From contig NZ_CM001022.1 of assembly GCF_000165795.1 (NCBI RefSeq), positions 434,001 through 498,000 of the forward strand: DNA of 64,000 nucleotides, read 5' to 3'. This DNA comes from Aminomonas paucivorans DSM 12260. Its GTDB lineage: Bacteria; Synergistota; Synergistia; Synergistales; Synergistaceae. Position numbers and translations under genes: made by a program. Below, one piece after another: positions 27,837-36,682 of this stretch (positions are counted from its first letter, which is position 1; each line of letters starts with the position of its first letter). The notes beneath the pieces were generated by a model. It did no database searches. It was not told where the DNA came from and saw nothing but the letters and a program-made list of their open reading frames with translations.

Positions 27837-28961
27837 ATGGAACTTTACCTGACCGCGCTCAAGGGCCTCATCACCCAGTCGGGCCTGGTGGGGCTCACCA
27901 CGGGCAACATCATCATGCTGGTGGTGGCTCTGGTGCTGCTGTACCTGGCCATCGGCAAGGGCTTCGAACCCCTGCTGCTCATGCCCATCGCCTTCGGCTG
28001 TCTTCTGGTGAACCTGCCCCTCTCGGGGATCATGGACCCCGGCGGGTTCCTCTACTACGTCTCCTTCGGGACGAAGCACGAACTGTACCCCATCATCATC
28101 TTCATGGGCATCGGAGCCCTCACGGACTTCGGCCCCCTGCTGGCCAACCCCATCACGTTCCTCCTGGGGGCGGCGGCGCAGTTCGGGGTCTTCATCGCCG
28201 TGGTGGGGGCCATGTTCATGGGCTTCAGCATCCAGGAGGCCGCGGCCATCGGGATCATCGGGGGCGCCGACGGCCCCACCTCCATCTACCTGTGCATGAA
28301 GCTGGCCCCGAAGATTCTGGGGGCGGTGGCGGTGGCGGCGTACAGCTACATGTCCCTGGTGCCCCTGATCCAGCCCCCCATCATCCGGCTCTTCACTACC
28401 AAGAAGGACCGGGCCATCAAGATGGAGCAGCTCCGGCCCGTGACCCGCACGGAGCGGATCCTCTTCCCCATCATTAGCACCATCGCCTGCGGGCTCATCC
28501 TGCCCCCGGCGGTGCCCCTCATCGGGATGCTCATGTTCGGGAACCTGCTTCGGGAGTGCGGCTGCACGGAGCGGCTGAACCTGGCGGCGCAGAACGAGAT
28601 CCTCAACGCCACCACCATCTTCCTGGGGATCACCGTGGGGGCCACCATGGAGGCCCAGACCTTCCTCACCGCAGCGACCCTGAAGATCATCGTCCTGGGG
28701 CTGGTGGCCTTCATCTTCAGCACCGCCGGAGGCTGTGTCTTTGGTCAGGTGATGAAGGTCATGTCCGGGGGCAAGATCAACCCCCTTATCGGGGCCGCAG
28801 GGGTCTCCGCGGTGCCCATGGCCGCCCGGGTGTGCCAGCGGGTGGTGCAGCAGGAGTTCCCCGGGTCCTACGTGCTCATGCACGCCATGGGACCCAACGT
28901 GGCGGGAGTGGTGGGAACCGCCGTGGCGGCGGGAGCCATGCTCACCCTGCTGACGGCGTAG
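27837..28961 (+). CDS. mmdB: Na+-pumping decarboxylase beta subunit
   Basis: A 374-residue polytopic membrane protein of the OadB/GcdB/MmdB family. It releases CO2 from carboxybiotin and pumps Na+ outward. Signature regions are GIGALTDFGPLLANP, IGIIGGADGPTSIY with the conserved Asp needed for Na+ transport, FGNLLRECGCTERLN, and NPLIGAAGVSAVPMAARV with HAMGPNVAGVVGT. It ends the operon that couples propionate formation to a sodium gradient. Confidence 0.96.
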   Translation: MELYLTALKGLITQSGLVGLTTGNIIMLVVALVLLYLAIGKGFEPLLLMPIAFGCLLVNLPLSGIMDPGGFLYYVSFGTKHELYPIIIFMGIGALTDFGPLLANPITFLLGAAAQFGVFIAVVGAMFMGFSIQEAAAIGIIGGADGPTSIYLCMKLAPKILGAVAVAAYSYMSLVPLIQPPIIRLFTTKKDRAIKMEQLRPVTRTERILFPIISTIACGLILPPAVPLIGMLMFGNLLRECGCTERLNLAAQNEILNATTIFLGITVGATMEAQTFLTAATLKIIVLGLVAFIFSTAGGCVFGQVMKVMSGGKINPLIGAAGVSAVPMAARVCQRVVQQEFPGSYVLMHAMGPNVAGVVGTAVAAGAMLTLLTA

Positions 28962-29173: not shown

Positions 29174-29214
29174 AGGACCCAAGACCTACGTCTCGTGATG
29201 AAGGGGGAGTGCCC

Positions 29215-30060
29215 ATGCGCGTCCTTCCTGCGGCGCAGCTGGTGGAGCGGATTCGGGAGCTGGCCCTGGAGGCCAACCGGGTCCTGCCCGGTCCGGTGCT
29301 TCGGGCCCTGAAGGAGGGTCGGGACCGGGAACCCCTGCCCCTGGCCCGGTCGGTGCTGGAGGATCTGCTGGAGAACGCCCGCATCGCCCGGGAGGAATCC
29401 CTTCCCCTCTGCCAGGACTGCGGCCTGGCGGTGGTCTTCCTCTCCTGGGGGCAGGAGGTGCTTCTGGAAGGGTCCTCCCTGCGGGAGGCGGTGGACGAAG
29501 GGGTCCGCCGGGCCTACCGGGAGGGGTACCTCCGCAAGTCCGTGGTCACGGACCCCCTCTTCGACCGGATCAACACGGGGGACAACACCCCCTCGGTGAT
29601 CCATCTGGAGTCCGTCCCCGGGGATCGGGTGGAGATCACCGTGGCCCCCAAGGGGATGGGCAGCGAGAACATGAGCCGCATCGCCCTGCTTCGCCCCGCC
29701 GACGGGGAGGAGGGGGTGCTGGATTTCCTGGTGGAGGCGGTCCGTGCCGCCGGCCCCAACCCCTGTCCCCCCGTGGTGCTGGGGGCGGCGGTGGGGGGGA
29801 ACTTCGAGACCGTGGCCCTGGCGGCCAAGAAGGCCCTGCTCCGCCCCCTGGGACAGCCCCACCGGGACCCCCGCTACGCTGCCCTGGAGGCGGAGGCCCT
29901 GAGGCGGATCAACGCCCTGGGCATCGGCCCGGGGGGCTACGGAGGGGCCACCACCGCCCTGGCGGTGCACCTGTCCTGCCTGCCCACCCACATCGCGGGC
30001 ATGCCCGCAGCGGTCAACTTCTGCTGCCACGCCCTGCGCCACGCCTCGGGCGTCCTTTGA
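29215..30060 (+). CDS. Class I fumarate hydratase (Fe-S), alpha subunit
   Basis: A 281-residue protein matching the N-terminal half of oxygen-sensitive [4Fe-4S] fumarases and the alpha subunit of tartrate dehydratase. LPLCQDCGLAVVF, GPNPCPPVVLGAAVGGNFE and LSCLPTHIAGMP supply the conserved cysteines for the cluster, and NTGDNTPSVIH and GSENMSRIALL are family blocks. It converts fumarate and malate into each other, feeding the succinate/propionate route just upstream. The ATG at 29215 has GGGGGAG five bases before it. L-tartrate dehydratase is the alternative, but metabolic context favours fumarase. Confidence 0.9.
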   Translation: MRVLPAAQLVERIRELALEANRVLPGPVLRALKEGRDREPLPLARSVLEDLLENARIAREESLPLCQDCGLAVVFLSWGQEVLLEGSSLREAVDEGVRRAYREGYLRKSVVTDPLFDRINTGDNTPSVIHLESVPGDRVEITVAPKGMGSENMSRIALLRPADGEEGVLDFLVEAVRAAGPNPCPPVVLGAAVGGNFETVALAAKKALLRPLGQPHRDPRYAALEAEALRRINALGIGPGGYGGATTALAVHLSCLPTHIAGMPAAVNFCCHALRHASGVL

Positions 30061-30073
30061 GGAGGGGAAACCC

Positions 30074-30652
30074 ATGACGGAAGCCCGCATCCTGACCCTC
30101 TCCACCCCCTTGACCCGGGAGGTCCGAAAGGACCTTCGGGCGGGGGATCGGGTGCTCCTCTCCGGGACGATCTATGCCGCCCGGGACGCGGCGCACCGCC
30201 GCATGACCGAGTCTCTCCGCCGGGGGGAACCCCTTCCCTTCGATCTTCGGGACCAGGTGGTGTACTATGCCGGCCCCGCCCCCACCCCGCCGGGTCGGGC
30301 CATCGGCCCCGTGGGCCCGACCACCAGCGGTCGCATGGACCCCTACACCCCTGCCCTCCTGAACCTGGGACTGGGGGGGATGATCGGCAAGGGACGCCGC
30401 TCTCCGGAGGTGCTGGAGGCCCTCAGGCGCCACGGGGCGGTGTACTTCGGCGCCACCGGGGGTGCGGCGGCGCTGCTGGCTCGATCCGTGCAGGAGTGCG
30501 TCCTGGTGGCCTACGAGGACCTGGGGCCGGAGGCCATCCTGCGCCTTCGGGTGGAGGGTTTCCCCGCCGTGGTGGTGGTGGACCCCCTGGGGACGGACCT
30601 CTACGACGTGGGTCCCCGGGAGGCGAGGCGCGCCCTGGGGTACGGGGACTGA
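30074..30652 (+). CDS. Class I fumarate hydratase (Fe-S), beta subunit
   Basis: A 192-residue swivelling-domain subunit, equal to the C-terminal part of class I fumarase. Motifs are LRAGDRVLLSGTIYAARDAAH, VYYAGPAP, GPTTSGRMDPYTP, GMIGKGRRS (substrate carboxylate binding), and VVVDPLGTDLYD. It starts 13 bp after the alpha subunit and forms the active dimer with it. Confidence 0.93.
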   Translation: MTEARILTLSTPLTREVRKDLRAGDRVLLSGTIYAARDAAHRRMTESLRRGEPLPFDLRDQVVYYAGPAPTPPGRAIGPVGPTTSGRMDPYTPALLNLGLGGMIGKGRRSPEVLEALRRHGAVYFGATGGAAALLARSVQECVLVAYEDLGPEAILRLRVEGFPAVVVVDPLGTDLYDVGPREARRALGYGD

Positions 30653-30663
30653 CGGAGATCCCT

Positions 30664-30906
30664 TTGCGGGGCGGATCGGACCAGCCCGTGGAGGTGGTCC
30701 TGGGGCCGGGGCTTCAGGGGGAAGGGGAGCGTCTCCTCCGGGTGTCCCTCCCGGGGCCCCTGCCCCTGAGGGAGTTCCTTCTGTTCCTCGGCCTGGACCC
30801 CCGGAACGTGGGGCCGGTCCTGAGGGAGGGCCGGACGGCGTCCCTCGAGGTCACCGTGTTACCAGGAGAACGATTGGTCCTGTTGCCTCCGCTGGATGGA
30901 GGATAG
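30664..30906 (+). CDS. ThiS/MoaD-like ubiquitin-fold protein
   Basis: An 80-residue protein from a TTG start with CGGAG upstream, only 11 bp after the fumarase beta stop. The pattern is a beta-grasp: beta strand VEVVLGPG, strand RLLRVSLPG, helix LREFLLFLGL, then LEVTVLPGERLVLLPPLDGG. The exact C-terminal Gly-Gly and the preceding hydrophobic-PP-xx-GG are hallmarks of ThiS/MoaD-type sulfur carriers, which are adenylated and thiocarboxylated at the last glycine. No E1-like ThiF/MoeB gene is near. Possible jobs are thiamine, molybdopterin or tungstopterin sulfur transfer, or delivery of sulfide to another pathway. The link to fumarase is positional only. Confidence 0.75.
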   Translation: MRGGSDQPVEVVLGPGLQGEGERLLRVSLPGPLPLREFLLFLGLDPRNVGPVLREGRTASLEVTVLPGERLVLLPPLDGG

Positions 30907-31015: not shown

Positions 31016-31969
31016 GTGAAACGTGGGTTTCGGTTCCTGGCGGTAGGGGCAGCGCTCTTCTCGTTGATGGCGGGTACGGCCTTCGGGGCCACCTTCATCA
31101 ACATCGGTACCGGCACCACCGGGGGGACCTACTACCCCGTGGGGGCGGGCATGGCGAAGATCTGGAACACCGCGATCCCGGGGATGAAGGCCAGCGCCCA
31201 GTCCACCGGCGGCACCGTGCACAACCTGCAGCTCATGAGCAAGGGCGAGGCGGAGATGGGCTTCGCCGACGGGCTTTACTACTTCGCTTACCTGGGCAAG
31301 GGCAAGTACGAGGGCCAGCCCCAGAAGTACCTCCGCGCCATGGTGCCCCTCTACGCCGAGCCCATCCACTTCCTGGTGGCCAAGGGCAGCGGCATCAAGG
31401 ACCTTCGCGGCCTGAAGGGCAAGCGGGTCTCCATCGGAGCCGTGGCAAGCGGCACGGAGGTCACCGCCAAGGAGCTGCTTCGGGCGGCGGGGCTGAACCC
31501 GGACAAGGACATCAAGGCGGAGAACCTGGGGCTCTCCGACACCGCCAAGGCCTTCGCGGACAAGCAGATCGACGCGGCCCTCACCGTGGGCGCCGTGGGG
31601 ATCTCCGGGGTGGTGGAAGCGGCCACCATGGGCCTGGTGGAGTTCGTGGACGTCCCGGAGGCCCAGATCAACCAGATCTGCGCTAAGCTGCCTTATTTCC
31701 TTCCCTTCACCATTCCCGCCAAGACCTACAAGGGGCAGGACAAGCCCAACAAGACCTTCGCCAGCTGGAACATCCTGGTGGTGTCCGACAAGGTGGACGC
31801 GGACCTGGTCTACAAGATGACCAAGGCCCTCTTCGATAAGAAGCAGGACCTGGTGAACATCACCACCCGCATGAGTTCCATGACCCCGGAGAACGTGCGC
31901 TACATCAAGATCCCCCTGCACCAGGGGGCGAAGAAGTACTACAAGGAAGCGGGAGTGGCGGTGAACTAG
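31016..31969 (+). CDS. TAXI-family TRAP solute-binding protein
   Basis: A 317-residue exported binding protein. The GTG start has GGAGGT seven bases before it and yields a signal peptide (KRGFRFLAVGAALFSLMAGT, cleavage near AFG). The mature N-terminus FINIGTGTTGGTYYPVG is the TAXI signature; QSTGGTVHNLQLMSKGEAEMG and the GKRVSIGAVASGTEVTAKELL block also match. It should hand its ligand to the fused permease 99 bp downstream. TAXI proteins often carry glutamate or related organic acids; the ligand here is unknown. Confidence 0.94.
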   Translation: MKRGFRFLAVGAALFSLMAGTAFGATFINIGTGTTGGTYYPVGAGMAKIWNTAIPGMKASAQSTGGTVHNLQLMSKGEAEMGFADGLYYFAYLGKGKYEGQPQKYLRAMVPLYAEPIHFLVAKGSGIKDLRGLKGKRVSIGAVASGTEVTAKELLRAAGLNPDKDIKAENLGLSDTAKAFADKQIDAALTVGAVGISGVVEAATMGLVEFVDVPEAQINQICAKLPYFLPFTIPAKTYKGQDKPNKTFASWNILVVSDKVDADLVYKMTKALFDKKQDLVNITTRMSSMTPENVRYIKIPLHQGAKKYYKEAGVAVN

Positions 31970-35899: not shown

Positions 35900-36682
35900 A
35901 TGGAGCTTCGGGAATACCTTCAAGTCTCGACGGATAGCCGCAAGAGCGACCGGTTGAAGCTCCTCTTCTTTCGGGATCAGTTGGCCTGCGACGAGTTTGC
36001 CCAGCTTTGGTCCCTGGCGGAGGAGATCGACGGAGAGGACGAAGCCCTGCTGTTGCGGGGGCTGGCGGCCAACGAGCGGGCCTCCCAGAGGGGCATCGTC
36101 AAGCCCCGGGGGCGCGGCCTGGGCTACCGCCTCTGGAGGCAGGCGCCGGAGGAGGACCTGCTCTGGATGGTCCGGGCCTTCACCGCCGCGGCGCTGGACT
36201 TCCACTTTGCCGGGGGCGACGGGAACTTCATGGCCGCCGGAGGGTGCCCCGTCCAGGGGCTCCTTGCCTCCCTCCCCGTGGGGGTGCTGGGCAAGGGCCT
36301 GGGGCGGGGAGAGCGGGAACTGGCGGAGGCCCTGGCCCTGAGCCAGCTGGTCACCGGGGCGCTGCTTCCCGACTCGGGGGACGAACCGGGCTTCGACGGC
36401 CTGGTGGCAGCCTCCGCGGGGGCCGCGGCGGGGATGACCCGTCTGGGGGACGGGTCCCCCAAGGCGGCGGAGGAGGCCGTGGCCACCCTGGTGGCCGCCG
36501 TCCTGGGCAGCCCGGAGGGCTCCGAACCCTCCATGTGGCAGTACGTGGGTTCCTGCCTGGCGGGGCAGGCCTTCATGGCCTCCCAGCTGGCCCTTTCGGG
36601 GCAGGGGCTTTCCCTGCGTTTCGGGGAGACCCGATGCCTTCTGGGGGACTGGGTGAAGCGTCAGAGAGAGGAACTTCTCTGA
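35900..36682 (+). CDS. Uncharacterised protein, faintly serine-dehydratase-alpha-like
   Basis: A 260-residue soluble protein I do not firmly recognise. A charged N-terminal part (about 1-105) is followed by a Gly/Ala-rich helical region. The stretches GGCPVQGLLASLPVGVLGKGLG and AASAGAAAGMTRLGDGS-PKAAEEAVATLVAAVLG recall the helical core of Fe-S L-serine dehydratase alpha chains, but the usual set of cluster cysteines is missing (only about three Cys), so enzymatic activity would be doubtful. A good ribosome site (GGGAGGGACGGAG) precedes the ATG. Confidence 0.55.
   Translation: MELREYLQVSTDSRKSDRLKLLFFRDQLACDEFAQLWSLAEEIDGEDEALLLRGLAANERASQRGIVKPRGRGLGYRLWRQAPEEDLLWMVRAFTAAALDFHFAGGDGNFMAAGGCPVQGLLASLPVGVLGKGLGRGERELAEALALSQLVTGALLPDSGDEPGFDGLVAASAGAAAGMTRLGDGSPKAAEEAVATLVAAVLGSPEGSEPSMWQYVGSCLAGQAFMASQLALSGQGLSLRFGETRCLLGDWVKRQREELL

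Follow-up and report, generated by a model that had tools for sequence, protein, structure and literature searches.

The question raised by this locus is what a very small gene, encoding a protein that ends in Gly-Gly, does directly behind the genes of class I fumarase. The window, by which we mean the whole 64,000-nucleotide stretch of Aminomonas paucivorans DSM 12260 that was analysed (contig NZ_CM001022.1, positions 434,001–498,000), contains the fumarase alpha subunit gene at 29209–30060 (+ strand; PF05681, E = 1.2e-103; NF004885, 351.7 bits, above cut-off; ATG 29215 is a possible start), followed by that of the beta subunit, fumB, at 30074–30652 (+; PF05683, E = 3.3e-59; NF005310, 250.2 bits, above cut-off). 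Upstream, a gene for an OAD_beta-type decarboxylase beta subunit (27837–28961, +; PF03977, E = 3.6e-154) is the neighbour that fixes synteny, and downstream lies that of a TAXI-type (NMT1_3) solute-binding protein of a TRAP transporter (31016–31969, +; PF16868, E = 4.4e-85, scored on a longer ORF from 30896, the GTG start at 31016 having been picked by eye). The TAXI protein is a neighbour, and we make no claim for it as a functional part of the small-gene system. Further downstream, 35900–36682 encodes a protein weakly similar to serine dehydratase alpha (PF03313, 1e-10), and the other genus considered below (that of G002, G021 and G031) has a similar-looking ORF close to its fumarase locus too.

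The initial annotation had described an 80-residue ORF that opens with TTG 11 bp past the fumarase beta subunit and ends in PPLDGG, and all of these features are present at 30664–30906 (+), where the fumB stop at 30652 is followed by an 11 bp gap, a TTG start and 80 codons (C-terminus LLPPLDGG) closed by TAG. A GGAG seen in the sequence at 30654–30657 (+), 6 nt ahead of the TTG, is a likely ribosome-binding site. An alternative start, GTG 30688, gives 72 aa and aligns with the starts of relatives, and the protein may thus be 72 rather than 80 aa long. The GC content per codon position (0.81/0.46/0.83) is coding-like and resembles that of fumB (0.76/0.54/0.88). A promoter scan at the locus found none, and terminator-like matches were close to chance level. 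The fumarase-linked small gene is a real gene.

Searched alone, the small protein had no Pfam or NCBIfam match at E-values up to 10, and single-sequence phmmer against the PDB gave E-values of 0.21 for TtuB and 0.36 for SAMP1; a PHROGs search returned no match. Using a profile of six orthologues, we matched TtuB of Thermus thermophilus at E = 3.4e-8 (PDB 5ztb) and, in a second TtuB match, at 2.1e-7, followed by SAMP2, SAMP1, PF1061 and MoaD at 0.002–0.004, whilst PF02597 matched two of the six family members (best 7.9e-5). The TtuB match upholds the ThiS/MoaD-like identity that the initial annotation had proposed to check by profile search and, together with the Gly-Gly end, supports a classification as a putative MoaD/ThiS/TtuB-type ubiquitin-like protein. 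A single-sequence AlphaFold model reached a pLDDT of 54.5, too poor for a fold search, and the predicted beta-grasp assignment rests on TtuB homology.

The distribution of the gene was followed through 185 Synergistota genomes, including a subset of 60 made up of the window's own genome (G000) and its relatives. A Fumerase_C match was present in 114 of the 185, and the small gene stands directly behind fumarase beta in four of these, namely G000 and the members of one further genus of its family (G002, G021 and G031), in which the orthologues overlap the end of fumB and all terminate in LPPLDGG. Conservation after fumarase, which the initial annotation had suggested looking for across Synergistota, therefore extends to two genera, and does not extend to the other 110 genomes with a Fumerase_C match. 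The Gly-Gly tail, on which the same annotation had staked its proposal, is kept in all four fumarase-linked carriers and in 6/6 rows of alignment A1, where it is among the invariant positions. Both the placement and the tail in G002, G021 and G031 are more than chance. The G021/G031 carrier pair had a dN of 0.21 and a dS of 1.25 (NG86; dN/dS ∼0.17), and the G036/G045 pair a dN of 0.043 and a dS of 0.394.

Among 30 fetched Fumerase_C loci, drawn from the 114 matching genomes, a small ORF ending in Gly-Gly was found behind fumB only at the window's locus, and G066 (L228) has the same order of OAD beta, fumA, fumB and TAXI genes with no room for a carrier. The six-member profile had matches at E-values up to 0.01 in 22 of the 185 genomes, including weak ones in long frames, and those beside Fumerase_C were confined to G000, G002, G021 and G031. 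Elsewhere the relatives keep different company: in G036 and G045, of another family, the gene follows malic enzyme at a distance of 3 bp, with TRAP-transporter genes upstream; in six genomes of family f9 it directly follows the gene of a tungsten-type aldehyde ferredoxin oxidoreductase (AOR; read so in all six, with Pfam applied to two and AFOR_N matches at three); in G061 it follows MobB (PF03205, 9.6e-17); and in G063 it comes after an AOR and then an Fe-ADH. In a small-protein tree of 45 rows (51 matches put through a final-Gly filter, at which six were lost, with L121 added and one duplicate removed; some rows trimmed at the N-terminus), the four fumarase-linked rows formed one group (93/93), neighboured by the malic-linked pair, six f9 rows and six f11 rows in a between-group order without support. 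A Gly-Gly ORF in L157 was rejected as not carrier-like, and the one match of a contig scan of species genomes, in a gammaproteobacterial MAG, was antisense to a long ORF and judged to be chance.

The initial annotation had also noted that no E1 was nearby. This holds for the window itself, but the sole ThiF-superfamily protein of the genome is encoded ∼15.7 kb past the window end, 49 kb downstream of the carrier (G000:C1:513721–514386; PF00899, 173.9 bits); it resembles MoeB, UbaA and ThiF and falls below every equivalog cut-off. An E1 was found in all six genomes of alignment A1. In G000 its gene stands head to head with that of MnmA (the two together spanning G000:C1:512366–514386), a divergent pair present in 11 of the 45 genomes having both, including all four with the fumarase-linked carrier. 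Several MnmAs of such pairs score low against the family model.

Comparison with known carriers shows where the protein resembles them and where it departs. It shares with TtuB (PDB 5ztb, 5gha) the best profile match, the size and the Gly-Gly end; TtuB, however, feeds TtuA in tRNA s2T54 synthesis (PMC7138817), whereas the TtuA-type family TIGR00269 had no match in G000, G021 or G031 at E ≤ 0.001 and a weak one (22.5 bits) in G002. Unlike canonical MoaD, it has no recognisable MoaE partner: MoaE matched in 0 of the 60 genomes (control matches in 11 of 14), so that the canonical sulfur acceptor is missing; MoaC was present in 55 of these genomes, G000 among them, and AOR in 44. By profile search, these 60 Synergistota either lack the large subunit of molybdopterin synthase or have one that cannot be recognised. 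It differs from ThiS of thiamine synthesis in that G000 has no full ThiG: the best match there, of 31.6 bits, is nominally above the 23-bit cut-off and covers 91 of 247 positions within a 663-aa frame, and we judged it to be a match to part of a barrel (in G012 and G027, a full ThiG reaches 331–335 bits). SAMP/Urm1-type modifiers differ in turn, since the Prok-JAB isopeptidase PF14464 had no match in G000, nor in G002, G021, G031, G036 or G045. The other two carriers of G000, ThiS-type at G000:C1:1663149 and MoaD-type at 588309, have the same Gly-Gly end and the one E1 in common with the window carrier, but they match TIGR01683 and TIGR01687 above cut-off, lie directly behind an AOR each and occupy different branches of the carrier tree.

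Further arrangements of ThiS-family genes were seen in other Synergistota. PP-loop proteins that resemble TtuA but score under the family cut-off adjoin ThiS-family proteins in G052:C3, G059:C1:1860387–1861445, G043:C1:200165–201231 and G036:C25, and these are possible TtuA–TtuB pairs. Genes for ThiS-family, E1 and JAB protease proteins cluster in G015, G017, G026, G029, G035, G011 and G030, and resemble protein-thiocarboxylate amino-acid synthesis modules.

The AORs offer a more specific connection. G000, G002, G021 and G031 each contain three AORs and three carriers (two ThiS-family matches and the fumarase-linked one); two AOR–carrier pairs are adjacent per genome, leaving one AOR (G000:C1:2350613 in the window's genome) and the fumarase-linked carrier unpaired. 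The window carrier is flanked by fumB and the TAXI protein, with no AOR adjoining. AOR trees of 37 and 78 rows were made from a subset of the AORs found in the 60 genomes, the former leaving out the divergent L182, L187, L193 and L205, and the latter L182, L187 and L193. In the 37-row tree the four unpaired AORs grouped with one that stands directly after fumA–fumB in G049 (99/97; in L216 fumB ends at 1519 and the AOR begins at 1550), then with one from G044, and this assemblage was sister to f9 and f2 AORs (99/96), namely those of G043 and G059, which have a related carrier behind them, and of G036. The wider group held in the 78-row tree of the N-domain (98/89), in which the four unpaired rows were not recovered as one clade. 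Moreover, in G002, G021 and G031 a malic enzyme gene, a 3-methyladenine glycosylase (tag) gene and the unpaired AOR follow each other on the same strand (Pfam run for G002). In G000 the malic enzyme is 2.7 kb from the unpaired AOR, with a peptidase gene between them on the other strand, and in G057 an AOR of the unpaired-AOR clade directly follows malic enzyme. In different families, then, the carrier and this AOR clade share two gene slots, one after fumarase and one after malic enzyme.

An AOR from one of the two sister clades was present in 9/9 carrier genomes vs 6/51 others (60 genomes; Fisher 3.4e-7, kinship ignored), a count in which AOR classification is partial, AORs outside the tree being judged other types from score and neighbours only. 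G042, G044, G049, G051, G057 and G058 have the same AOR clade and no carrier of the fumarase-linked type. All 7 aligned AOR rows retain the cysteines of CxxCxxxC as well as a distal Cys, and by family membership these AORs would be tungsten enzymes. One strand of L217 (G050:C3:8000–20000) encodes an AOR, fumA, fumB, a class II fumarase/aspartase-like lyase, malic enzyme and a ThiS-family protein; this row has a further reading frame ahead of fumA, the codon-position GC of its ThiS-family gene is unlike that of the neighbours, its AOR belongs to another clade and its carrier is outside the matches of the six-member profile. At G043:C1:971800–973800, the AOR ahead of the carrier is split in two ORFs, a possible frameshift.

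We put at roughly one half the probability that the fumarase-linked protein is a MoaD-like sulfur carrier for the tungstopterin of the third AOR, charged by the sole E1. The single MoeB/ThiF/UbaA-like E1 would adenylate the C-terminal Gly-Gly of the carrier, a sulfur donor would convert the adenylated end to a thiocarboxylate, and this would pass its sulfur to the tungstopterin dithiolene of the otherwise carrier-less third AOR. The simplest account of the shared slots and of the f9 adjacency would be a module in which C4-dicarboxylate enzymes are joined by an oxidoreductase of the tungsten type and by the carrier that provides its sulfur; carrier, third AOR, fumarase and malic enzyme would form such a module in Synergistota, loose and reshuffled, which would be why the carrier is translated with fumarase. 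The AOR-adjacent MoaD-like proteins (Iyer et al., 2006, PMC1779556; TK1065, UblB of T. kodakarensis, PMC11323500), which are of the same superfamily, are a fitting parallel: the nearest relatives in the phylum are directly behind an AOR, and each host has one matching unpaired AOR. The window gene differs from them in standing behind fumarase with no AOR adjoining, the adjacency being found instead in its f9 relatives. Several observations speak against tungstopterin synthesis: the AOR is not adjacent, the AOR clade occurs in six genomes that have no carrier of this type, MoaE had no match in the 60 genomes, the carrier–AOR link depends on about three independent lineages only (f1, f2 and f9), the malic enzyme and AOR of G000 are separated by a gap with an opposite-strand peptidase gene, the 78-row tree does not recover the unpaired AORs as one clade, and the E1 head to head with MnmA also fits tRNA thiolation. 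A wider proposal, which we offer only tentatively and think rather unlikely, is that Synergistota make tungstopterin without MoaE through several MoaD-like carriers, one per AOR clade, which deliver sulfur to cPMP via a large subunit not recognisably MoaE, the window carrier serving a malate/fumarate-linked tungsten oxidoreductase in the C4-dicarboxylate module.

The same slots weigh on the other roles that such a protein might have. That it supplies the sulfur with which the [4Fe–4S] cluster of fumarase is assembled or repaired, as the initial annotation proposed, would suit the operon-like spacing to fumB in four genomes. Malic enzyme is not known to have an Fe–S cluster, and yet the closest relatives lie behind it (G036 and G045) or behind AOR (six f9 genomes), and a related carrier follows MobB; together with the rarity of the gene beside fumarase (4/114) and the carrier-free syntenic locus of G066, this led us to reject cluster repair as the main reading and to regard it as highly improbable. 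The sharing of slots with one AOR clade favours tungstopterin synthesis over such repair, and so gives a definite form to the 'unrelated thiolation pathway' that the annotation had named as its other option. It also argues against a free-standing general carrier that duplicates the two AOR-linked carriers and sits in the fumarase slot as a neutral site of steady expression, since carrier and AOR clade come together behind both fumarase and malic enzyme in separate families; this we think decidedly unlikely, even though the neighbours of the family vary and the three T. kodakarensis carriers are functionally redundant in tungsten cofactor synthesis and tRNA thiolation (PMC11323500).

Thiolation of tRNA, in which the E1 charges the carrier and the head-to-head MnmA takes the sulfur for 2-thiouridine, has in its favour the divergent gene pair and the fact that the best solved relative, TtuB, is itself a tRNA-thiolation carrier. 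MnmA, however, normally uses a desulfurase persulfide, and the one next to the E1 is full length with what we take to be its CxxC-type and CF motifs; 7/11 genomes with the E1–MnmA pair have no carrier of this type, and the TtuA-type enzyme is wanting as described above, making this role unlikely. Were the protein instead to regulate fumarase, malic enzyme or AOR in the manner of a ubiquitin-like modifier or partner, either conjugated to them or bound non-covalently, the slots behind fumarase and malic enzyme would be explained, and SAMP and TtuB relatives form conjugates (PMC11323500; PMC4443979); this is nevertheless very unlikely, given the lack of a Prok-JAB match in the six genomes searched and the fact that most Synergistota fumarases have no such neighbour.

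The T. kodakarensis protein UblB serves tungsten cofactor synthesis (PMC11323500), and AOR–MoaD neighbourhoods are described in PMC1779556 and PMC2948915. In the text available of these last two, fumarase and malic enzyme are not named as carrier neighbours: in PMC1779556 the single instance of 'fumar' belongs to a species name and 'malic' is absent, and PMC2948915 has neither. Titles and opening lines of abstracts yielded no fumarase-linked carrier in the literature. These findings point to one more lineage of ubiquitin-like carriers in Synergistota, whose gene partners are fumarase and malic enzyme. The distribution of MoaC (55), AOR (44) and MoaE (0) over the 60 genomes is a gap like that of AOR-bearing Thermotoga thermarum, for which missing moaD/moaE is noted in PMC4148951. 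Moreover, pairing of the carrier with a specific, otherwise carrier-less AOR would make it possible to test cleanly if each such carrier is dedicated to one tungsten enzyme. In this amino-acid-fermenting bacterium, the likeliest role of the carrier would be to provide sulfur to a tungsten cofactor, and not to fumarase repair.
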